Origin: Gemmatimonadota bacterium
Lineage (GTDB): Bacteria; 4572-55; J002
Length of the DNA stretch: 37,805 bases
Reading direction: 5' to 3'
NCBI GenBank assembly: GCA_003697105.1
Contig: RFFQ01000072.1
Coordinates: 1 to 37,805, forward strand
Every line of letters begins with the position of its first letter. Position 1 is the first letter of the stretch. Under the pieces are notes generated by a model. The model worked only from the letters and a program-made list of their open reading frames with translations, made no database searches and was not told where the DNA came from. Shown here piece by piece: positions 136 through 13,365 of the stretch. The position numbers and the translations under genes are program-made.

Positions 136-815
136 CAAATATCCCGGATATGGGTAAATAATTTGGGAAGTTTGTCTTCAGATGTTCTAAAACCTGTCCC
201 ATGATTTCTGGCTCTAGTTCTTTTATCATGGAGTCGTAAATCGACAAGGATATCGCCAGTTTTGAACAGGTCGGAAAGCAATTCAGGTGTCGTACCTTCC
301 ATTAGCTGTGCCCGATAGAAATGAAAATATTCCCGTCCACCTCTTTCCTCTGTTCTCGCGGAGATAAACAGAAGCGCCGGGATTTTTTGCATAAAACGCT
401 CTGCCAATGTAGCTAAGTGCCATATGGCAATCACTTCACCGGAGGTATGCTGAACAGAAATTTCCGATTCCGTCACGGTTAGAAAAAGTCCGGCACTATT
501 CGGCTTTAAAGACATCGTGTAGTACATTCCCAGACGGTTATTTCTATCATAACTACCATACTTTCGAATCGCGTCAAGTGGGTTTATTTGCCACACGTTC
601 CGGTTGAATGTAAACAATGTGATTAAATTGCTACTACCATCCCGGTGTGCTTTTATTTCAATTTTGTCCAGATCCGGTAATGCAAGATTGTTTTCTTTGA
701 GTCCTAACGCTGTTTCAAGGGTATATCCAATTCCGGTGGGACCCTTTCGCTTTGTGGGAATAAACCCTTCTCGTTTTAATTCCGAAAATCGAATTTTGGA
801 TTCATCTAACGCCAT
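135..815 (-). CDS. Type II restriction endonuclease, MvaI/BcnI family
   Basis: The protein has 226 residues, close to the size of MvaI and BcnI. Near the N-terminus it shows GIGYTLETALGLKENN followed by PDLDKIEIK. Glu34, Asp48, Glu53 and Lys55 keep the spacing of the E...D...ExK active site of the MvaI/BcnI nucleases. The C-terminal NHGTGFRTSEDKLPKLF also fits the family. MvaI and BcnI are monomers that cut CCWGG and CCSGG by sequential nicking; the exact site here cannot be read from sequence. The gene sits 28 bases after the pyrophosphatase and is coupled by a TGATG overlap to the methyltransferase, so this is a complete restriction-modification pair interrupted only by the window edge. A weak TGGA precedes the start. 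Having the nuclease upstream of the methyltransferase is notable, because tight coupling would limit unprotected cutting. Confidence 0.85.
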   Translation of the reverse strand: MALDESKIRFSELKREGFIPTKRKGPTGIGYTLETALGLKENNLALPDLDKIEIKAHRDGSSNLITLFTFNRNVWQINPLDAIRKYGSYDRNNRLGMYYTMSLKPNSAGLFLTVTESEISVQHTSGEVIAIWHLATLAERFMQKIPALLFISARTEERGGREYFHFYRAQLMEGTTPELLSDLFKTGDILVDLRLHDKRTRARNHGTGFRTSEDKLPKLFTHIRDI

Positions 816-843
816 TGCTGTATTTCCAAACGGGTGAACGGGA

Positions 844-1254
844 TTAACGGGGAAAAAGGTTCTCTCTCCGCCACAGTGTATGTAAGGGATACCGTACCAA
901 CAGTTTGCCTTCCATTAGGGTCCGGTCGTAATTGATGAATCCATTTACACAATAGATTTCCGGAGGCGTACAATTATAAATCAATTTAAATTCTTGGTCG
1001 CCTCGACGGTAATCGTTGGTGAATATCATAGCAACAAGCCCGTTGTTTGCACTGCCCACGAAAATATCCACTTCCATGCCATCCAACCCGGTTGTATTGT
1101 TGATATACCCGTAATCCAAAGGATAGATAATGTGCGGGTACTCTGGGTGCGCCGTACCGTAAGGTCGATCAATGGAAATACCATTGGTCTCAATCAAACA
1201 CTCCCAAAAGAGCCAATCAATACTCGCCGAGTTTAGATGGAGTGAAGAAGACAT
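844..1254 (-). CDS. Divergent family I inorganic pyrophosphatase
   Basis: This soluble cytoplasmic enzyme is predicted to hydrolyse PPi to two phosphates. The sequence carries IDRPYGTAHPEYP, IIYPLDYGYI and LDGMEVDIFVGS, matching the family I core, and ends with a LLVRYP strand. With the second ATG as start (residue 11 of the longest frame, before SSSLHLNSASIDWLFWE) it has 136 residues, shorter than Escherichia coli Ppa (about 175). The classical metal-binding DxDPxD signature reads DGMEVD, so the middle Asp is Met. The later Asp pair is D...E-F-K. These changes occur in a recognised short, divergent branch, so activity is likely but substrate or metal preference may differ. No clear ribosome binding site supports either start; the longer frame begins at 1284. 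It is divergent from the phosphofructokinase gene and upstream of the restriction genes. Confidence 0.72.
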   Translation of the reverse strand: MSSSLHLNSASIDWLFWECLIETNGISIDRPYGTAHPEYPHIIYPLDYGYINNTTGLDGMEVDIFVGSANNGLVAMIFTNDYRRGDQEFKLIYNCTPPEIYCVNGFINYDRTLMEGKLLVRYPLHTLWRRENLFPR

Positions 1255-1384
1255 GATAAACAGAGTAAAGGGGCAATCATACATCGATAACGGTTTGTTT
1301 AAGATATAGAACTACCAAATCAATCACAAGTAAAAAATAGAGTTATCACTTATTTACGATAAATCGACATCCTAGTCTTTAATA

Positions 1385-2685: not shown

Positions 2686-2712
2686 GGCGAGTCTGCTAGG
2701 CTCGCCTTTTTT
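2686..2712. terminator. Bidirectional terminator between convergent genes
   Basis: GGCGAG at 2686-2691 pairs with CTCGCC at 2701-2706, followed by six T on the plus strand. On the minus strand the stem is followed by GTTTTATTTT, so the hairpin can end both the phosphofructokinase transcript and the convergent dockerin-protein transcript. Confidence 0.85.
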
Positions 2713-5090
2713 CATTCCACCAACCGCACATTCCAGAAGTCCAGAAGGCGTTCCACATCATCAAAGGTGATAACACCATCTTGATCCAAATCGTAGCGTA
2801 GCTGATACCGCCCATCCCCCCATGTACCCCCCAGATGAATAAGTAACAGTTGCAAATCGATCAAATCAACGTTCAAATCATCATTGAGATCAAAGGGAAA
2901 TCCGCCACGCTGAATCGCCACATTCACCCCGATCCCTACCGGATTTTGATCCGGATCGGAAGTAATCAACCAGAGGGTATCTTGTAGGTTATCGGCTTCA
3001 ATACCGCTCAGATCGATGAGGAGGAATAGGCTGTCCGAGGTACAGGGGGGGATGTAGCGCGGGATATTGGGACGAATGTTCTCCAAAGGCAACCATTCCG
3101 GCAACCGGTCGGAATCTATGTACACCTCAAGGGTATCTGTGCCCTGATTTGTGAGGCTGATCCGTTGCTCATAGCTTCCATTTTCCATCAGCCGGAGAAA
3201 CACCTGCTGGGGCTGGAGTTGCAACACCGCATGTTCGAGGTCACTCACGACACAAAATCGAGCGGCATCATGAGTATTAAGGATCGCCCCGCCCATCTCT
3301 CGTTCGTCGAGCACCACCCGTGAGTGTGTAACCTGCAAATTAAACGAGATACCCGCTGGAACCATCTCCGCAAGCGTGACATGGAACGCAAAGAGAGGTT
3401 GACCGACCCCAGCCGGAATCGGACTTGATATTGTTATTTCAATTCGATTCCCCATCCGGGTATATTCCAGTTCAACCCCCTCACCGGTTGGAACCACCTC
3501 AATCTGTTCAATCCACGCCGGTTGAACCACCAGTGTGTCCCATTGAGCGATCAGATGGAGGGTTTGAATCGCGGTGAGGGGATTGGACACCCAAACCGGT
3601 ACGGCTGCCGTGTCACCCGGCATTACAAAGGGATCATCTAATTGCAAACCTCCGATCCAGCGCCAACTGCCTACATTGGCGACTTCTCCCGGTGCCGTCT
3701 CTATGGTTTCTTCCGTGATTGAAAAGATAGATTCACCCGTAGTGTCATTCCGGCAGTCCATGTACATTGCGCTATCTGCCGGAATTGCCAAGCGGAAAAA
3801 CCCGGCGGTTTCTGGGTTGCCGTCGTCAATGCCATTGGGTTCGGTCATGTAGATCGCTTTCGGCGGGCTACTATAGGCAACAGAGAGTTTGCGCGGCAAT
3901 CCGGCTCGTAGCCCGCTTCGTTCATCGGCAAAGATACCTTCCACCCATCCCATCCAAAATTCGGGTGTTTCGGGGCAGGTCACGGAATCACAACCAATGA
4001 TAACCGGTACTGGAAACCCGGTGGTCCAGCGGTCTTCGCCATTTTCTTGAATCGCAACAGAAAACCACCAGTCATTACCGGGGGTTTGTGCACCATCCGC
4101 CCGAAAAAAGAGGGGTATTTGCTGGTCAAATGCCGTTGCGATAAATCGGGGTTGGTTGTCTGCCGGGGCGTTGGTGTCAATCCATTCCTGATGTTCTGGG
4201 TCATACGTTTGACCGAAATATTCCAAAGAGTCTTCATCTCTATCCCTTTGGTAAAACTGAATTTTATATCGATATTCTTGTTCCGGTTCCAGACCGATAA
4301 AGCGCGGCAGGCACGCATTTTCAGAGGTGCTATCATTAATGACCCAACTGGGGTAATGGACGTAGTCTCCACTGGTAAGCTGGATACCGGTAGCCGCACT
4401 TCCGCGCAAGTCCACGCGCGAGATATCCGCATTTGCCTGAACTTGCAAATAACTTCGGACGGTACCCCTCTGTTCCGGGGTAAAACTGACGGCGAAAAGA
4501 GCTTGACCTCCCGCAGGGATGATCTGTTGTACCGGAGTCACCTGAAATTGAGGATTACGGCGGGTGATCTGGATGTGTACGGGGTGGGGATCCTCGTTAC
4601 GAACCGTCAATGGAAGGGTCTGAGTTGTGCCCAACGGCACGTGATCAAATTCCAGTTCAGGGGGATCAAACTGAACCGGCGGCGGAAGGTATGTCAATAT
4701 TAACGGTATAAAATGCGGCGTTTCTGGGTCGTTGTGGAGTAGTTCGATTTCGCCATAATATTCGCCGTAATCTAATCCTTCTACGGTAAACTGGAGGTCG
4801 ATGTGGGACGAGTCACCGGGTTCTAGCACAAACGCATTTCCGTGGGGAGGTGGATTTAGTATTTCCACCCAGTCAATGTCTTCTGAAAAGATTAAGAGCA
4901 AAATATCGTTGCCTTGATTCCGAAACACGATCCGGCTAACGGCAACGGATTCTGGAGCTTGAATCGTGTTATGAATTTGATTGTGGGAGATGCTCAAGCC
5001 CCCCTCTGCAAGGTCTTCTGCCAAAAGGTTGTCTGGTATGGTGAGTTGGATCAGTAGAAGTGCGATATATGCGGGAAAAAAGCATTTCAT
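2712..5090 (-). CDS. Secreted protein with ASH-like, cohesin-like and dockerin domains
   Basis: The 792-residue protein opens with a signal peptide (MKCFFPAYIALLLIQLTIP, cleavage near LLAED). Residues about 30-230 form two immunoglobulin-like repeats of the ASPM-SPD-2-Hydin/DUF1573 type, seen in VEGLDYGEYYGEIELLHNDPE and SFTPEQRGTVRSYLQVQA. Residues about 235-470 match nothing I recognise. Residues about 480-615 (VMPGDTAAVPVWVSNP, then a long beta-rich stretch) resemble a cohesin domain. The C-terminus, about 733-791, has two EF-hand-like repeats (DLNDDLNVDLIDLQ and DLDQDGVITFDDVERLLDF), typical of a type I dockerin. It probably acts outside the cytoplasm as a calcium-dependent assembly or scaffold protein. 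Its ATG overlaps the stop of the upstream regulator gene by four bases (ATGA), so the two are translationally coupled. No enzymatic motif was seen. Confidence 0.8.
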   Translation of the reverse strand: MKCFFPAYIALLLIQLTIPDNLLAEDLAEGGLSISHNQIHNTIQAPESVAVSRIVFRNQGNDILLLIFSEDIDWVEILNPPPHGNAFVLEPGDSSHIDLQFTVEGLDYGEYYGEIELLHNDPETPHFIPLILTYLPPPVQFDPPELEFDHVPLGTTQTLPLTVRNEDPHPVHIQITRRNPQFQVTPVQQIIPAGGQALFAVSFTPEQRGTVRSYLQVQANADISRVDLRGSAATGIQLTSGDYVHYPSWVINDSTSENACLPRFIGLEPEQEYRYKIQFYQRDRDEDSLEYFGQTYDPEHQEWIDTNAPADNQPRFIATAFDQQIPLFFRADGAQTPGNDWWFSVAIQENGEDRWTTGFPVPVIIGCDSVTCPETPEFWMGWVEGIFADERSGLRAGLPRKLSVAYSSPPKAIYMTEPNGIDDGNPETAGFFRLAIPADSAMYMDCRNDTTGESIFSITEETIETAPGEVANVGSWRWIGGLQLDDPFVMPGDTAAVPVWVSNPLTAIQTLHLIAQWDTLVVQPAWIEQIEVVPTGEGVELEYTRMGNRIEITISSPIPAGVGQPLFAFHVTLAEMVPAGISFNLQVTHSRVVLDEREMGGAILNTHDAARFCVVSDLEHAVLQLQPQQVFLRLMENGSYEQRISLTNQGTDTLEVYIDSDRLPEWLPLENIRPNIPRYIPPCTSDSLFLLIDLSGIEADNLQDTLWLITSDPDQNPVGIGVNVAIQRGGFPFDLNDDLNVDLIDLQLLLIHLGGTWGDGRYQLRYDLDQDGVITFDDVERLLDFWNVRLVE

Positions 5091-8000
5091 GCCGTGTCCT
5101 CCGCCGGTTTGAGATACGTCTCAATCTGATGCTGCCACTGCCGGGCTTTATCGGTTAGGTGGTTTCGGTTCAAGAGGGCGATATACTCTTGGTAATAGAT
5201 AACTTTATCCATAATAAACGGGTATGCATACTGATGAAGTTGGTGATAGATGGTTTCGATTTGTTCCAATCCTTGTTCGTAGGCGGTTTGGGCGGCGTCC
5301 CACTCCTGTAGGTCACTTAGTACGCGGGCATAGCCGAGATACGTCTGCCATTGAATATCGGGATCACCGGTGGGCATCTTTTCAAGGGCGTTTTCATAAG
5401 CCTGGCGAGCAGATTCATACTGGTGTAACCCGCGGAGACAGTTACCCCACGCGAGGTAAATATGGGTACATTCTTCGGCAGATTCGGCATGAAAGGTCAC
5501 GTGATCGATGTTGTCCACGGCGTGTTGATGGTAATCTAGTGCCTTTTCCAATTGATTCTGTGTTTGGTACCATAAACCGATAAAATTAAGGGTTTTGGTG
5601 CGCTCTGCCATAAAACCGTGTGCTTCCGCCAGTTCTAAGGCGTGCTGGTAGCATTGTAGCGCATCCTCAAACTGACCCGCTTTTTGGTGCACTAAACCTT
5701 TCCAGCGCAACAGATACGCTTCTTGTTCGGGATTTTGTAAGATGGTTATTTCATGCAGTGCTTCCGTGTAATACACCAACGAAAGCTCATAATTGTTGAC
5801 CACCTGATACATCCAACCGAGGGCAAACAACGCATCTTTGCGGTCTTCGGGGTTGTGTGTGGCATACGTCGCAATTTGGAGTGATTTTTGATACGCGGTA
5901 ATTGCCTCTTCGTAATTGCCTTGCGCAAAGTAAATCCGTCCTAATTTTTGGTAAGCGAGACCTTCTTCTTTAACATATCCAATGGATTGCGCCAGATGTA
6001 AAGTTTCGGTGGCTGTGGCGAGGGCATTTTCAATTTGGTGCCGGTCGAAATAAATCCAAACCAGATTGGAGAGGGTTTCGCACGCTTTTGCCCGATTACC
6101 ACAGATGTGGTAGAGTTCTGCCGCCTGTTGGTAGTAGGTGAGCGCGGAATCGAACGCTTCCTGATAATAGTGTACAATACCAATGTTGCGTAAGGTGTCG
6201 GCACGACCTTCGGCATCATCTGTGTGTTCGTGCAAGCGTAACGCGTGATGGTACCGTGTCATTGCTTGTTCCAAATCACCTTCCAACAGATAAGACACCC
6301 CGATATTATTTAAAAGAGCGGCTTCCTGAGCGAGTTCTCCGGTTTCTTGCGCCAATTGAAGTGCGTTTTCCCAGAGATTTCGGGCACGTTCCTGCTGCCC
6401 CATGATGCTATGGATTTTCCCTTGTCCCTTTAAGGCACTGATTTTTAATGGAATCCGGCGTTCTTGCTCGCAAAGGTGCTCTATCTGTTCATAATCGGAC
6501 AAGGCATGGCGGTAATTACCCACAAGTTCAAGCACTTCTGCCCGGCGGTATATCAAGTGTACTCGTTCCCAAACGGAGTCTTTCCCTAAAGTTGCTTGGA
6601 GGTCAATCGCTTTGCTGTAAAAATAGATGGCGAGGGAATTATCATACTGGGCACGCGCCAGTTCGGCAGCTTTTTCGTAGTAAAATCGTTGTTTCTGCAC
6701 ATTGGTGGTAAAACTATAATGATAGGCAAGATGGTAGATAAACGGTTCTAACGTATGGGCATAGGTTTTTTCCAAATACATCGCGACTTTTTCATGCAAC
6801 TGCTGGCGGTGGGCAAAGCGTAGATTTTTGTATGCGGCTTCTTGTACCAGCAGATGTTTAAAGAGATACCATTGTTCTGCTGCTGAAACTGTTACCCGTT
6901 TTAGGTATGTTTTACTAAGGTGTTGGACGGTTTCTGTTAATTGTTGGGAGTCAATCGCAATCGGGTAGATATTCGTAAGTTGGTCCATCGTAAAGCTTTC
7001 ACCGATCACAGAGGCAACTTCCAGAATCAATTTACTCTGTTCGTCCAAACGCTGGATTCGTTGTTGGAGCAACTCATTTACGTTTTCCGGTAGTTTTATA
7101 GAAGCGGGTGGGACGGTCAGTTGGCTGTTTGTTTCAAGGTCGCCGGTTACAAGAATGCCTTGATCCTGCAATTCGAGCACAAACTCTTTGATAAAAAAGA
7201 GATTTCCCCGGCTTTTCCGGCGAATCCGTTCAATGAGGGTCACGGGTAAGGGTTTTATGCTCAGTTGGGTCTCAATCAACTGGTTAATTTCCACGTTTGA
7301 TAGGGGTTCGAGGGGAAGATCATGGTAATAGGGTAGTTCACGTAACCCATTCAGGGGGTCCTCGGTTGAAGGGGTGGGAGGATGGCAAGTTATCACAATG
7401 AGTAAGGGTATGGTTTCCAGTGCTTGCGCGAGGTGGTTCAGTAATTCGAGCGAAAGGGGATCAATCCAATGGAGATTTTCCAGTACCAACACAAGGGGTT
7501 TATAACGACATTCTCGACGGAAGAGTTCCTGAATCAGGTAAAACAAGCTCTGTTGGCGTAGGGCAGGGGTCAAGGCGGTAGATTCGGGGGTTTCCGGTAT
7601 GTTCAGGTGCAAGATGTCATTCCACAGGGGAGTTAAGGCTAAACATTCGGGACAGACCCGCTGCATATACTGGTGAACCCGTGCAGAGTTGCGTTCCGCA
7701 TTGGATGCTGTTTCCAGATGGAAAAAAGATGAAAGCAGATCAGACCAGACCTGATAAGGTCGATTCAGATGAAGTGGGGTACATTCCCCACTGTGAGTGA
7801 AATATGCAGATGTTGCTGGGGTATGATTGACCCACTCTTGTACTAAACGTGATTTTCCAACGCCGGGATGTCCGGTAATGGCAATGAGTTGCCCGTGGTG
7901 CCGGGTATGTCGGTAAATCTGTTCCATCTGGTTCAGTTGGTGCGTTCGCCCAATAAAACGGTGGGATTTTCGGGGGGTGGGCAACTTCCTGCCTTCCAAC

Positions 8001-9202
8001 TGGTAGAGGGCATACGGCACTTCCCGCGGCAACGGCGGTGGGAGTTGAATCGCCTGCCAAACAAATTGGTGGTGGTTTTTTTGAGCCGCCGCCGAGGTAA
8101 TCACCACTTGACCCGGCGGTACCTTCTCCACCAGTTGCTGGAGTATTTCAACGGTATCCCCTAATAACACAACCTGCGAATAACCGGCAGAGTCGAATTG
8201 CTGTATCTCCACAGTACCGGTATGAATGGCTATCCGTTGCAAACCGGTGAACGGTAGCGTCCCGGCGGCATGTTGCATCTCCAAACTACATGCCAGCGCC
8301 GGAAATGCGCCACGCTGGCGGTCTGCTTCAAACATAATTTGTAGCTGTAATCCCTGTGTCCCGGCATCCAGATGCATAAGTTCCCCATTGTATTTGCGGA
8401 TAAAGGCAAGCATGGTGGTGGTGTAATGGTGCAGTTTATCATAAACGTCAGGGTCGTGTAGAAAGTCCAATCCCGTAAAAATAGCATGGAGCAAAACCGG
8501 CGTAGCCGCGGGCCGTATCACCGGGGTACCGGAAAGAGGGGGACGCCAGTTTTTGAAGGTGTTGAATGGAACGGATGGGACCTCCGGTAAGGTAATTTCC
8601 ATCGAAAGCACGCGCTTTAATTCTGTTACCGGACAGTACCGGTTCAACGTATGGTCTAAGGCGATACTTTCTGTGAGGGGTTGGTAGTGTTGTATGTCCG
8701 GTGACGGTTCTGTAAGTAGATAATTTGCCGGAAAGTCGGGTCCAAAGTTGCTGATGGAAATGTGCCCCGGGCGAAGGGTCGCGTTGAATTGCCACGCCCC
8801 GGGGTGTGTCTGCTTTTGTAGATACCGTATGCTTTGCAACCCGTTGTGGAGTAATGTCTTCCATTCCATTTTTTCTGCTTTGGGGAACAAGACCGTCAAA
8901 TGGTCTTTGCCAATTTTTCCAACGATACCGCCAAAATATGGTAAGGGTTCGATGAGGGTCGGCAAGACCGCAGGAGATGGGGGATCGGGTTGGGTCGGGG
9001 AGAGGATGACCTCCAAAATAAGCGCCGGATACCGGTGAGTAAGCGGTGCTGAGACTCGCGGTGAGGTTTCTGGCGCCGATATTCCCTCAGGGGGTACGGC
9101 TCGAAAAGACAGTTTCATGGGGTTTTTGTCGATATCGTCGAAATAAATAAAAAGCAAGAACCACATGGGATGCGGCGGTGATTTGAATTCTGCAAAAATC
9201 AT
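5087..9202 (-). CDS. Large sAC-like regulator: two degenerate cyclase domains, STAND/AAA ATPase, TPR array
   Basis: The 1371-residue protein has four parts. Residues about 55-200 and 230-400 both look like class III nucleotide cyclase folds (GGIVGKIGKDHLTVLFP in the first, AIFTGLDFLHD in the second), but neither keeps the metal-binding Asp pair, so they are probably non-catalytic. An ATPase follows with Walker A GHPGVGKS near residue 440 and Walker B LVLVLENLHWID near 570, of the AAA_16/STAND type. From about 760 to the end run many tetratricopeptide repeats (NNIGVSYLLEGDLEQAMTRY, YQKLGRIYFAQGNYEEAI). The order matches mammalian soluble adenylyl cyclase and bacterial cyclase-ATPase-TPR regulators. 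No signal peptide; cytoplasmic. The start is uncertain: no good ribosome binding site precedes 9202, and a later ATG before KLSFRAVPPEG is possible. It is coupled to the secreted dockerin protein downstream. Confidence 0.8.
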   Translation of the reverse strand: MIFAEFKSPPHPMWFLLFIYFDDIDKNPMKLSFRAVPPEGISAPETSPRVSAPLTHRYPALILEVILSPTQPDPPSPAVLPTLIEPLPYFGGIVGKIGKDHLTVLFPKAEKMEWKTLLHNGLQSIRYLQKQTHPGAWQFNATLRPGHISISNFGPDFPANYLLTEPSPDIQHYQPLTESIALDHTLNRYCPVTELKRVLSMEITLPEVPSVPFNTFKNWRPPLSGTPVIRPAATPVLLHAIFTGLDFLHDPDVYDKLHHYTTTMLAFIRKYNGELMHLDAGTQGLQLQIMFEADRQRGAFPALACSLEMQHAAGTLPFTGLQRIAIHTGTVEIQQFDSAGYSQVVLLGDTVEILQQLVEKVPPGQVVITSAAAQKNHHQFVWQAIQLPPPLPREVPYALYQLEGRKLPTPRKSHRFIGRTHQLNQMEQIYRHTRHHGQLIAITGHPGVGKSRLVQEWVNHTPATSAYFTHSGECTPLHLNRPYQVWSDLLSSFFHLETASNAERNSARVHQYMQRVCPECLALTPLWNDILHLNIPETPESTALTPALRQQSLFYLIQELFRRECRYKPLVLVLENLHWIDPLSLELLNHLAQALETIPLLIVITCHPPTPSTEDPLNGLRELPYYHDLPLEPLSNVEINQLIETQLSIKPLPVTLIERIRRKSRGNLFFIKEFVLELQDQGILVTGDLETNSQLTVPPASIKLPENVNELLQQRIQRLDEQSKLILEVASVIGESFTMDQLTNIYPIAIDSQQLTETVQHLSKTYLKRVTVSAAEQWYLFKHLLVQEAAYKNLRFAHRQQLHEKVAMYLEKTYAHTLEPFIYHLAYHYSFTTNVQKQRFYYEKAAELARAQYDNSLAIYFYSKAIDLQATLGKDSVWERVHLIYRRAEVLELVGNYRHALSDYEQIEHLCEQERRIPLKISALKGQGKIHSIMGQQERARNLWENALQLAQETGELAQEAALLNNIGVSYLLEGDLEQAMTRYHHALRLHEHTDDAEGRADTLRNIGIVHYYQEAFDSALTYYQQAAELYHICGNRAKACETLSNLVWIYFDRHQIENALATATETLHLAQSIGYVKEEGLAYQKLGRIYFAQGNYEEAITAYQKSLQIATYATHNPEDRKDALFALGWMYQVVNNYELSLVYYTEALHEITILQNPEQEAYLLRWKGLVHQKAGQFEDALQCYQHALELAEAHGFMAERTKTLNFIGLWYQTQNQLEKALDYHQHAVDNIDHVTFHAESAEECTHIYLAWGNCLRGLHQYESARQAYENALEKMPTGDPDIQWQTYLGYARVLSDLQEWDAAQTAYEQGLEQIETIYHQLHQYAYPFIMDKVIYYQEYIALLNRNHLTDKARQWQHQIETYLKPAEDTA

Positions 9203-9358: not shown

Positions 9359-10747
9359 ATGAAAAAACCTCGTATTTTAGTTGTCGATGATGATTACAAC
9401 GTTCGTAAGTTGATCTCCCTCAAATTGGAAACAGAGGGTTACGAGGTGATTAGTGTCACCTCCGGTCAAGAAGCATGGGAAAAAGTGCAAGAGATGCCCT
9501 TCAATCTGATCATCACGGATATTATGATGCCGGAGATGACCGGAGATGAACTTCGACAAAAGGTCAATGCGTACAATCCCAATATTCCCTTGATTATGAT
9601 TACCGCTTATGGGAGTATCAGCCATGCGGTGGAGGCTTTGAAGAATGGTGCCAATGACTATATCACCAAGCCATTTCAAATTCCCGAACTGCTGACAAAA
9701 GTACGCAATGCTGTTGAAAAACAGCAACTTCAGGAAGAAGTCCAATATCTGCGTGATACCTTGGAAAAACGAAAAGTGTTTGACCAGATTATCGGACGGA
9801 GTAGCGCCATTGAAGCGGTTTTGTCTCAAGTTCATATGGTTGCCCGGAGCCGGGTTTCCATTGTGATTGAGGGAGAAAGTGGCACCGGAAAAGAACTGCT
9901 GGCCCGGGCAATTCATTATTCGAGTAATCGGGCAGATGCCCCGTTTGTGGCGGTCAGTTGCGGTGCCTTGCCGGAAGAACTGCTGGAAAATGAACTTTTC
10001 GGACATGTAAAAGGTGCTTACACTGGCGCGCATGGAAACGCCAAAGGGCTGTTTGAAGAAGCGCATACGGGTACAATTTTTCTGGATGAAATTGGTGAAA
10101 TCAACCATAATATTCAGGTGAAATTGCTCCGCGTCCTTCAAGAGCAGGAATTTAAACCGGTGGGCACGACCCATACCGTCAAAGTTGATGTGCGGGTTCT
10201 GGCGGCAACAAATCGCCGCTTGAAAGAGATGGTCGCTAAGGGAACATTCCGGGAAGATTTGTATTACCGGTTGAATGTGATGACCATTACGGTACCGCCT
10301 CTCCGCGACCGGAAAGAAGATATACCCTTGCTTGCCGAGCATTTTTTGAAAATTTATCGCCACCAGTTTGAAAAAGATGTGCTGGGATTTACACCCGAAG
10401 CGATCCAAAAATTGATGGCGTATGAATGGCCCGGTAACGTACGTGAATTGGAAAACAAAATTCAACAAGCCTTGTTGATGACCCGCACGTCATACATCTT
10501 ACCTGAAAATATCCCGCTTTATAATGTCGAACCCATAAAAAGCTATTCGACCGAACTTCGTCCTTTTCAGGATGAGAAAAAAACAGTCGTTGATGCGTTT
10601 GAGCGAAATTATATTACACGTGCCTTAAAACTGCATCATGGCAATATCACACATGCCGCCAAAGCCGCTGGGAAAGATCGAAAAGATTTTTGGCGGATTA
10701 TGAAAAAGCATAATATTGACGCAAAAAAGTTCAAGAATAGACCGTAG
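9359..10747 (+). CDS. NtrC-family sigma-54-dependent response regulator
   Basis: This cytoplasmic transcription activator works with RNA polymerase carrying sigma-54. The 462 residues contain a receiver domain (acidic pocket DDD at 10-12, phosphorylatable Asp54 in IITDIMMP, Lys in ITKPF), an AAA+ domain with Walker A GESGTGKE near 172, the sigma-54 contact loop GAYTGA near 218 (usually GAFTGA) and Walker B TIFLDEIGE. A C-terminal Fis-type helix-turn-helix (NITHAAKAAGKDRKDFWRIMKKH, about 420-445) completes it. Length and domain order are those of a full NtrC-type protein. No histidine kinase gene adjoins it; the soluble kinase at 20843 is a possible partner. It is followed closely by batD and may be cotranscribed. 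No good ribosome binding site is visible before the ATG. Confidence 0.95.
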   Translation: MKKPRILVVDDDYNVRKLISLKLETEGYEVISVTSGQEAWEKVQEMPFNLIITDIMMPEMTGDELRQKVNAYNPNIPLIMITAYGSISHAVEALKNGANDYITKPFQIPELLTKVRNAVEKQQLQEEVQYLRDTLEKRKVFDQIIGRSSAIEAVLSQVHMVARSRVSIVIEGESGTGKELLARAIHYSSNRADAPFVAVSCGALPEELLENELFGHVKGAYTGAHGNAKGLFEEAHTGTIFLDEIGEINHNIQVKLLRVLQEQEFKPVGTTHTVKVDVRVLAATNRRLKEMVAKGTFREDLYYRLNVMTITVPPLRDRKEDIPLLAEHFLKIYRHQFEKDVLGFTPEAIQKLMAYEWPGNVRELENKIQQALLMTRTSYILPENIPLYNVEPIKSYSTELRPFQDEKKTVVDAFERNYITRALKLHHGNITHAAKAAGKDRKDFWRIMKKHNIDAKKFKNRP

Positions 10748-10837
10748 CGCCCTCGTGTGTCGATGGCGGAACTCAGAATGCGTTTATTTCTCATACCGGT
10801 GATGATTTTGACTTTTCCAACCTTAAAATCAGATGGA

Positions 10838-12598
10838 ATGCTTACCACGCGGCATATCGTCTTGGGTTTAATTTCATGGGTCTTGTTGGGGATTTTGGCA
10901 ATCGATGGTCTTTTTTCGGTTGCCGAAAGTGCCCAAATCTCCCAATTTCGGGCGGAGGTTGATCGCACCTCCTTGGCTCAGAACGAGACCGTCAATTATC
11001 GTCTCATTATCGAGGGAGATGTGACCAATGTACCCACTCCCACATTACCTCCCCTGAATGAATTTCAGGCGTATTCTTCCGGGCGTTCGCAAAATATTTC
11101 CATAGTCAATGGGCGCATCCAAGCGTCGGTGACATTCAACTATATCTTACAACCCAAACAACCGGGTAAATTTACGATTGCACCGGCAACATTGACCGTC
11201 GATGGAAAAACATACCAAACGCAATCCCTTACTATTGAAGTGACGCCGGGTCGAGCGCCGGCGAACATGCCCCCCCAAGGCTCGCGCCCCCCATCCTCCC
11301 AGCAACCGCGCGCGGATTATTTTGTTGAGTTGAGTGTTGATAATGATACCCCTTATGTAAATGAAATGATCACTCTGTCCTTCCGCTTTTACCGGGCACG
11401 GAATGTGATGGGAGGGTTAAACTACACCAAACCCAAAACCAACGGTTTCTGGAGCCAAGATTTGCCCCCGCAACTGGATTATCGAGAAAATGTAGGGGGA
11501 AAAACGTATTTGGTGGCAGAGTTACGGACTGCACTTTTTCCGACGGCATCCGGTACATACACCATCGAACCGGCTACTTTACAAATTCGCGGGACGTTTT
11601 TTCAGGCGGCACAAACACTACGCTCCAATGCGGTGACCGTGAAGGTAAAGCCCTTACCCACGGCGGGGAGACCCGCCAACTTTAGCGGGGCGGTCGGGCA
11701 ATACCGGTTGTCCACAAAAGTCAGCCAGACCGAAACAGACCTAAACACCCCGATTACCTTGACAGTCACCCTCTCCGGGAAAGGTAATATCGAAATGCTC
11801 AGCGAACCGTCCTGGCCCGAATTGCCGGACTTCAAATTTTATGACTCGAATAGCTCGTCGAATGTAAAAACGGATAACTATGTGGTCAGCGGCTCTAAAA
11901 CTTACGAAAAGGTACTGATCCCCAAACGAACCGGGACGTTTACGATTGAGCCGGTAACATTCAGCTATTTTGATCCGAAATCCGAGCGTTACCGGACATT
12001 AAAATCAGAGACATACGAAATCAAAGTGTACGGCGCCGAAATTGACGAACGTGAAACCAATCTGTCCCGGCAAGATATCCGGCTGTTAGGTCGTGACATC
12101 CGGCATATCAAGCCGGTGCCGGCGGTTTTGCAAAATCGGGGTATTTGGTACACAGAGCGGCTCAGTTTTTGGTTGGCGATCATTTTACCGTTAGGCGGCT
12201 TGATCGGTGTTTTTGGCTATCAGCGCCACCGGGAACGTCTGGAAGCTGATTCCGGTTATGCCCGATCTCGCCAAGCGGCTAAAATGGCACACAAGCGGCT
12301 CTCCACTGCCAAAATGCATCTGACTACACATGACAGTGCCGCCTTTCATGCGGAGGTTCAACACGCATTGACTCATTATCTGGCAGATAAGCTGAACGTT
12401 CCTGCCGGTAGTATCACATTGGATCGGGTACGGTCCCTGCCTTCCATTCCCGAAGCGTTACGTCCTACAGTTGTTTCTATTTTGGAAAAATGTGATCTGG
12501 CACGGTTTGCACCAGTACAGCATGTGTCAGAAATGTCTGAAACCCTAACTACCACCCAAAAACTGATTACGGATTTAGATAAAACGTGGAACGGTTAA
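10838..12598 (+). CDS. batD: BatD family protein
   Basis: BatD proteins are membrane-anchored, largely periplasmic parts of the Bat (Bacteroides aerotolerance) system. The product has an N-terminal signal or anchor (MLTTRHIVLGLISWVLLGILA), repeated beta domains typical of BatD (VDRTSLAQNETVNYRLIIEG, then YILQPKQPGKFTIAPATLTVDG), a proline-rich linker near residue 150, and a transmembrane helix near 447-465 (LAIILPLGGLIGVFGY). A C-terminal cytoplasmic segment of about 120 residues follows. The frame is open from a GTG at 10757 and has other ATGs at 10763 and 10778; I chose 10838 because it starts the signal peptide, but no start has a convincing ribosome binding site. It overlaps batE by 13 bases if batE begins at its GTG. 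BatA and BatB, the usual von Willebrand factor A partners, are not in the window. Confidence 0.85.
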   Translation: MLTTRHIVLGLISWVLLGILAIDGLFSVAESAQISQFRAEVDRTSLAQNETVNYRLIIEGDVTNVPTPTLPPLNEFQAYSSGRSQNISIVNGRIQASVTFNYILQPKQPGKFTIAPATLTVDGKTYQTQSLTIEVTPGRAPANMPPQGSRPPSSQQPRADYFVELSVDNDTPYVNEMITLSFRFYRARNVMGGLNYTKPKTNGFWSQDLPPQLDYRENVGGKTYLVAELRTALFPTASGTYTIEPATLQIRGTFFQAAQTLRSNAVTVKVKPLPTAGRPANFSGAVGQYRLSTKVSQTETDLNTPITLTVTLSGKGNIEMLSEPSWPELPDFKFYDSNSSSNVKTDNYVVSGSKTYEKVLIPKRTGTFTIEPVTFSYFDPKSERYRTLKSETYEIKVYGAEIDERETNLSRQDIRLLGRDIRHIKPVPAVLQNRGIWYTERLSFWLAIILPLGGLIGVFGYQRHRERLEADSGYARSRQAAKMAHKRLSTAKMHLTTHDSAAFHAEVQHALTHYLADKLNVPAGSITLDRVRSLPSIPEALRPTVVSILEKCDLARFAPVQHVSEMSETLTTTQKLITDLDKTWNG

Positions 12599-13365
12599 GA
12601 TCAGCGATGACCCCTTCTTTATTTCGGCTCATCTGGGTCGTTTTTTTCATCATGGTTGGCCGTGCGACTGCCACCGAAGCCTTATTAGCTGAGTTAGAAA
12701 AAGCCAACCAGTTGTATGAAGCGGAACAATATGAAGCCGCCATTGAACACTATCAAGCCATCATCGCACAAGGGATTGAGAACCCGCTTGTGTATTATAA
12801 CTTGGGCAATGCGTTCTTCAAATCAAATCAGTTGGGGAATGCTATTTTGTCTTACGAACGTGCCCGGCGGCTGGCACCCCGCGATGAAGATATTTTAGTA
12901 AATTTGGAATTTACTCGTGCCCAAATTGTGGATCGGGTGGAACTACCGGATGAGGGATTTCTCATCAATAGTTATCATTTTTTACTGACCCGGTTCACCG
13001 TCAATGAAGTGTTACGTGTGGGCTATGTGATTTATCTCTTGTTGATATTGAATATGGCGCTGTGGATACTTGTCCGGCGGTTTCGACGGTGGTTGGTTTA
13101 TCCCCTAGTGCTGTTTTTTGTACTTACCCTCATGGTGGGTGGGTTTTGCTACCTCAAGATACAACATGATCAGGTACCCACCGCCGTTGTGATGGTCACG
13201 CAAACCAACGTGATGACAGGTCCCGGCGAAAACTTACAGGTGGCGTTCAAAGTCCATGAAGGCACAATTTTATCTATTTTAGAAACTCGAGGTGAATGGG
13301 TCGAAGTGGTACTGGCGGGTAAACTTCGCGGATGGGTCAAGAAAGAGACCTTGGTCGAGGTCTAA
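12586..13365 (+). CDS. batE: BatE-like protein with TPR, membrane helices and SH3 domain
   Basis: The product has a signal peptide (TPSLFRLIWVVFFIMVGRATA), two tetratricopeptide repeats at about 35-110 (NQLYEAEQYEAAIEHYQAI, LVYYNLGNAFFKSNQLGNAI), two membrane helices at about 145-195, and a bacterial SH3 domain at the C-terminus (TQTNVMTGPGENLQVAFKVH, ending GWVKKETLVEV). This order is that of BatE, and the gene directly follows batD with a short overlap, so the pair is probably one transcript and one complex at the inner membrane. The start may be the GTG at 12586 or the ATG at 12607, which begins the hydrophobic signal directly; neither has a strong ribosome binding site. The molecular role of Bat proteins is not settled; links to oxidative stress and cell-envelope integrity come from other organisms. 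Confidence 0.82.
   Translation: MERLRSAMTPSLFRLIWVVFFIMVGRATATEALLAELEKANQLYEAEQYEAAIEHYQAIIAQGIENPLVYYNLGNAFFKSNQLGNAILSYERARRLAPRDEDILVNLEFTRAQIVDRVELPDEGFLINSYHFLLTRFTVNEVLRVGYVIYLLLILNMALWILVRRFRRWLVYPLVLFFVLTLMVGGFCYLKIQHDQVPTAVVMVTQTNVMTGPGENLQVAFKVHEGTILSILETRGEWVEVVLAGKLRGWVKKETLVEV

Follow-up and report, generated by a model that had tools for sequence, protein, structure and literature searches.

A stretch of 37,805 nucleotides from a Gemmatimonadota bacterium (contig RFFQ01000072.1, positions 1 to 37,805; hereafter the window) carries, at 5087-9202 on the minus strand, a gene for a 1371 amino acid protein, P0001, that we describe as a STAND/TPR pseudo-cyclase of the soluble adenylyl cyclase (sAC) type on the basis of its frame, BLASTP and an alignment of relatives. 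The gene is a single intact frame of 1371 codons with no internal stop. Its true start may be Met29 at 9118 (-), because the relatives begin there, and by eye no clear ribosome-binding site precedes either ATG. Pfam places AAA_16 at residues 415-603 and TPRs at approximately 920-1320, and together with an AlphaFold2 (AF2) model, Foldseek and VIA-align this gives a domain order of two cyclase folds, an AAA_16 ATPase and TPRs. The first pseudo-cyclase domain, C1, covers residues 54-225 (8528-9043 (-); AF2 model and alignments), and the second, C2, residues 233-410 (7973-8506 (-); AF2 model, alignments and profile). The AAA_16/STAND ATPase follows at residues 413-680 (7163-7966 (-); Pfam, alignment and model). 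Behind it, predicted secondary structure (helices and a beta hairpin) suggests a winged-helix-like segment at residues 708-794 (6821-7081 (-)), and a helical-repeat/TPR superhelix occupies residues 796-1371 (5090-6817 (-); Pfam, model and Foldseek). An earlier note, made from the sequence alone, had read the order cyclase-like, cyclase-like, STAND ATPase and TPR as that of sAC, and this is borne out by Pfam, by a profile match to human sAC and by the AF2 model. Directly downstream lies an exported-type gene at 2712-5090 (-), whose start codon and the stop codon of P0001 overlap as ATGA.

Judged by alignment and modelling, P0001 is a collinear but highly diverged homologue of sAC-type proteins with the order C1-C2-STAND ATPase-TPR. 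Guanylate_cyc is absent among the best 25 of the 34 Pfam matches of P0001 (E<=1), none of the 18 matches of PF00211 in the genome falls in the P0001 gene, and phmmer with residues 29-415 against the PDB returned a single chance match (E 1.9). Because no cyclase domain stood among these matches, the cyclase domains were tested through relatives. BLASTP of P0001 against 22 sAC-like STAND proteins, four from the same genome and 18 from others, gave alignments that include the C2 region in 21; the best match, L084, shows 28% identity over 1091 amino acids, followed by L076 and L079. A profile built from P0001 and 31 relatives whose genomes are named (19 belong to Chloroflexota) has human sAC as its top PDB match (E 2.2e-76), spanning both C1 and C2. 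Relatives obtained by an alignment-based scan of contigs are a sample, since of 517 places confirmed the 80 best were kept. When P0001 was removed from the profile, its C2 fragment (residues 226-410) still matched significantly (E 2.3e-15 at Z=1000), the best of 500 shuffles reaching 0.46. In addition, hhalign of residues 1-415 against the 31 relatives gave E 4.9e-17, with the alignment running from residue 78. An AF2 model of residues 29-640 has a predicted local distance difference test (pLDDT) score of 77.8, with model residues 143-176 and 195-204 below 50. Foldseek ranks human sAC first for this model (E 3.8e-16), and VIA-align, where sAC is again the first match, superposes the two with a Z of 29.5 and a root mean square deviation (rmsd) of 3.6 over 367 aligned residues; no different fold was found, and this match is one of consistency rather than independent proof, because the alignment supplied to AF2 consisted of sAC-like relatives.

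In order to assess the active sites, we compared P0001 with 54 other twin-domain proteins in a 55-row survey. Single-domain cyclases were left out, as were L075 and L086, in which no twin pair aligned, L040-L045 and L048, loci that had been fetched twice and whose genes already stand among L076-L085, and proteins with a truncated or partial C1 (L059, L113, L115, a second L121 frame, L145 and others). Because near-copies such as L058/L063 and L076/L078/L110 were kept, the rows do not count as independent events. The reference residues are those we take to be D47, D99, K334, T405, N412 and R416 of sAC, and their columns come from the alignment of the human sAC profile. The relatives are close to uniform: the first metal-binding Asp (D1) and the second (D2) of C1 are each present in 54/54, as is the transition-state Arg of C2, while the substrate-selecting Lys of C2 is present in 48/54 and the Asn in 53/54. 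At these columns P0001 has I66 (D1), D100 (D2), Q283 (Lys), E352 (Asn) and Q356 (Arg), and it is the sole protein of the 55 without D1, Asn and Arg. The register of I66 is unsure, as the local alignments do not reach back beyond residue 78 or 79, and no DxSGFT motif occurs in residues 29-78. The segment between D1 and D2 is 34 residues long in P0001 and 49-52 in all 54 relatives, making it 15-18 amino acids shorter. The Gly-Asp of C2 is retained. The substrate-selecting Thr/Asp column of C2, at which P0001 has V345, is variable among the relatives, with Val in two of 54.

The earlier note had held that both cyclase domains lack the metal-binding aspartates. For C1 this is right as to the D1 motif but not as to D100, the second metal Asp, which is kept. 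For C2, 20/20 other displayed twin-domain proteins also lack the D1 motif by eye, and its absence there is therefore normal for the class and no sign of inactivity. Read from the alignment, the decisive losses are the D1 motif of C1 with the shortened segment, and the Lys, Asn and Arg of C2, and no shifted set of catalytic residues was found. The suspicion that the domains are inactive is thus supported, and on its residues and its model P0001 is cyclase-dead. That an unusual active site still makes a cyclic nucleotide, to which the retained D100 and C2 Gly-Asp could be held to point, is highly improbable, since the protein has none of D1, Lys, Asn and Arg and its C1 segment is short.

Smaller departures occur among the other sAC-like STANDs. 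L060 (G178) has Thr for the transition-state Asn and keeps D1, D2, Lys and Arg, making it the one other row lacking the Asn. The C2 Lys is replaced by N, E, H or D in six (L083, L082, L131, L132, L136 and L121) that keep both Asp, Asn and Arg, and substrate choice may differ in these. L219 and L220, which lie outside the survey, look catalytically intact in the alignment.

The ATPase of P0001 has an intact Walker A motif (GHPGVGKS). In Walker B the first acid, E575, is kept and the second position is N576, where 53/54 relatives have Asp. The GNP motif reads GNL at 666-668, with L668 at a position that is Pro in 52/54 relatives (Ala in one, a gap in another). A model of residues 405-1371 (pLDDT 85.3) contains the ATPase, the winged-helix-like segment and a helical-repeat superhelix, and Pfam, Foldseek and the model agree on a TPR superhelix of superstructure-forming repeats, which in the model runs to the C terminus. 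Foldseek with this C-terminal half has the solved STAND-TPR protein 6mfv as its top match (E 2.2e-14, TM-scores 0.30/0.41). A C-terminal LuxR DNA-binding domain, the mark of Mclx-type cyclase/LuxR regulators, was not seen, there being no helix-turn-helix among the best 25 of 34 Pfam matches, and PADLOC returned only a generic TPR model for the locus.

The source genome (4.18 Mb in 199 contigs) encodes four other proteins of the same domain order (L002, L003, L005 and L007), all of which keep the catalytic residues, as well as other cyclase-domain genes and 12 matches to cyclic nucleoside monophosphate (cNMP)-binding domains. Cyclic AMP (cAMP) signalling therefore probably exists around P0001, and the four intact paralogues and 12 cNMP-binding-domain matches make a cAMP network for P0001 to modulate plausible. 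A tree of C2 and the ATPase separates P0001 from the 10 sAC-like rows of its phylum and joins it to 41 rows of other groups (split support 100), and its end branch, 2.06, is the longest of 55. Transfer is not claimed, because P0001 sits on the longest branch and was itself part of the alignment used to fetch the relatives; it may be either an old acquisition or an old paralogue. A recent foreign origin is not supported by composition, as the GC content at third codon positions (GC3) is 0.512 in P0001 and 0.405-0.534 in 13 other window genes. None of the 250 plasmid records matched by tblastn with P0001 reaches a query coverage of 80%.

The exported-type gene that overlaps P0001 encodes 792 amino acids with a signal-peptide-like N terminus, an ASH/choice-of-anchor-D-like immunoglobulin domain and a dockerin-like C terminus, where Pfam finds a dockerin-type-I-like repeat below its cut-off (2745-2894 (-)). 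Part of it, at 3700-4400 (-), is shared with a 1970 amino acid exported-type protein (L094, G001:C83, 1238-7150) from the second genome of the phylum, which lies directly after a sAC-like STAND gene (L072) whose catalytic residues are kept. The shared region spans approximately 200 residues at 33% identity and has no Pfam match. Partial matches to it occur in three of the other 288 genomes, and no cyclase-STAND frame turned up in the four stretches fetched around such matches.

The earlier note had considered coupling to a secreted protein unusual for this class. This does not hold in the two genomes of the phylum covered here: of 13 sAC-like STAND genes found in them, eight are followed by a same-strand gene with a signal-peptide-like start. 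For 11 of the 13 the next gene lies on the same strand at a distance of up to 350 bases; eight of these 11 neighbours look exported, versus 24/116 background pairs (Fisher p 7e-4; p 0.003 with all 13), by a home-made signal-peptide rule applied to two genomes and an idea formed post hoc. To obtain this background, 20 stretches of the two genomes were chosen by contig number; it replaced a first one (17/60) because that contained the targets. The remaining two genes, on C15 and C95, have an opposite-strand or distant non-exported neighbour. Among GTDB loci with a next open reading frame (ORF), 3/27 look exported, one of them on the opposite strand, ORF calling being poor there. Around further large ATPase genes in these genomes, taken irrespective of a cyclase pair (L213, L214, L217 and L218), one of four same-strand neighbours within 350 bases looks exported, and one further exported-looking neighbour lies at 389 bases (L209). 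Loci in which an exported-type gene follows a sAC-like STAND include L094, L095, L096, L098, L099, L100 and L220. Five of the six exported neighbours scanned have Pfam matches (YadA-head/Peptidase_S74, Peptidase_S74, TonB-plug, FG-GAP and cadherin/dockerin), and L098 has none.

Elsewhere in the window, a sigma-54 response regulator gene is divergent from the pseudo-cyclase gene and is followed by genes for BatD and a TPR/SH3 protein (9359-13365 (+)), and a MvaI/BcnI-type restriction endonuclease gene (138-1284 (-)) adjoins an ORF of 146 amino acids without a Pfam match. Rfam at gathering thresholds gave no match in the window.

We infer, at about an even chance, that P0001 is a cyclase-dead STAND/TPR switch of the sAC-type lineage that signals by protein contact. 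Such a protein would act in the cytoplasm as a switch set by ATP, in which the TPRs would bind a signal or a partner and the STAND module would set the open or closed state. ATP hydrolysis is perhaps slow or absent, because the second Walker B acid is Asn and the GNP-type Pro is lost. The output would be not cAMP but a protein contact, made through the pseudo-cyclase pair or the TPRs, with the co-translated exported protein or the catalytically intact sAC-like paralogues as candidate targets.

Several observations weigh against this interpretation. The C1 fragment (residues 29-225) is not significant against the profile without P0001 (E 0.21), so that the assignment of C1 rests on its position, the GG...D segment and the match of the AF2 model to sAC, and the alignment given to AF2 itself favours an sAC fold. 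A close search of genome contigs found no orthologue, in a setting where the GTDB family of the source holds one genome and the phylum two, and selection on the cyclase-dead form is not measurable because no close relative was found. When 386 genomes were searched with the cyclase half, the best other hit among the matches listed (E<=1e-3) had 31% identity over residues 229-406, and apart from P0001 itself all those listed lie at query residue 224 or beyond (>=224), around C2. Contact with the exported protein would require that it meet the switch before export. Furthermore, three of the 11 same-strand neighbours (C161, C54 and C102) do not look exported, and the paralogue on C161 overlaps such a gene by 4 bases, as P0001 overlaps its own neighbour, so the partner need not be exported.

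A possible, if doubtful, alternative is that the pseudo-cyclase pair is a ligand sensor for a nucleotide, a bicarbonate-like anion or cAMP that gates the ATPase. C1 and C2 are predicted to pair as in sAC, and K96 lies in the column of sAC K95, which we take to be the bicarbonate-binding lysine. However, Lys occupies that column in only 13/54 relatives, the D1-D2 segment of C1 is shortened, and pLDDT is below 50 at model residues 143-176 and 195-204. A similar proposal has been made for Mclx2 and Mclx3, which lack cyclase residues, according to excerpts of the report on them (PMC4452763). The domains may be ligand-binding or regulatory remnants, as first suggested, but an output through protein contact is equally likely.

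It is unlikely that P0001 regulates the sAC-like paralogues of its cell or acts on them as a dominant-negative partner. The genome does offer four such paralogues whose residues are intact, and excerpts of a study of vWA proteins suggest such a role, or a nucleotide-binding one, for their inactive cyclase domains (PMC7159879). However, the tree sets P0001 with other phyla rather than with its own paralogues, albeit on a very long end branch, and C1-C2 pairs of the sAC type form within one chain. Less probable still is that P0001 is a relict whose gene is decaying towards a pseudogene: the end branch is the longest in the tree and cyclase and STAND motifs deviate alike, but 1371 stop-free codons, an intact Walker A, confidently modelled repeats, GC3 like that of the neighbours and the tight ATGA junction all speak against decay.

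Returning to the contact-signalling switch, a broader and unlikely extension is that the sAC-type STANDs of the phylum form dedicated pairs with exported surface-type proteins (YadA-head/endosialidase-chaperone, TonB-plug, FG-GAP and cadherin/dockerin types) as cytoplasmic sentinels, one for each surface product. The pair in the window would then have dropped cAMP entirely and signal by direct contact, and the STAND/TPR part rather than the cyclase would be central to what the sAC architecture does. That exported-type genes are enriched behind sAC-like STAND genes provides a testable partner hypothesis. What the large C-terminal part of sAC does is poorly understood; as given in excerpts of one report, nucleotides and other candidates have been tested without identifying a regulator specific to full-length sAC (PMC12802110). 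A natural homologue that has kept the C-terminal part and discarded catalysis offers a way to study the ATPase/TPR part without cAMP.

Human sAC, ADCY10 (4clf, 7ovd), shares the C1-C2 order and fold with P0001 and, in excerpts of the same report, a predicted STAND/P-loop region after C1-C2 (PMC12802110), whereas D1, Lys, Asn and Arg are missing from P0001, whose C1 is also shortened. Twin-cyclase STAND-TPR proteins of Chloroflexota and other groups (L084, L076, L079, L104 and L110) are collinear with P0001 at 17-28% identity, but such proteins retain D1, D2 and Arg throughout and Asn with a single exception, and P0001 keeps D2 only. The STAND-TPR sensor PH0952 (6mfv), the top Foldseek match of the STAND-TPR half, superposes loosely (rmsd 12.9), and no sAC-type pair was named among the matches listed. 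The TOMM kinase/cyclase fusion TIGR03903 matches residues 323-999 in part (188 bits against a cut-off of 706), but P0001 has no kinase domain among the best 25 of its 34 Pfam matches. In MoxR-vWA ternary systems an inactive cNMP cyclase domain, proposed in the excerpts to bind nucleotide or act as a dominant negative, is NTPase-linked as in P0001, but is fused to vWA in a different architecture (PMC7159879). The mycobacterial proteins Mclx2 (Rv1358) and Mclx3 (Rv2488c) likewise combine a cyclase-homology domain without catalytic residues with an AAA/NB-ARC ATPase; in the excerpts, the Asn is missing from both and a metal residue from Mclx2 as well, and ATP or cAMP is proposed to bind allosterically (PMC4452763). 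P0001 differs from both in having two cyclase folds and TPRs. Among the matches listed in the open-access literature, we found no report of a pseudo-cyclase of the sAC type that combines twin cyclase domains with a STAND module and TPRs. To judge from these partial sources, cyclase-domain/ATPase proteins without catalytic residues have a precedent in Mclx2 and Mclx3, and the twin-domain TPR form with this degree of loss is a new variant.
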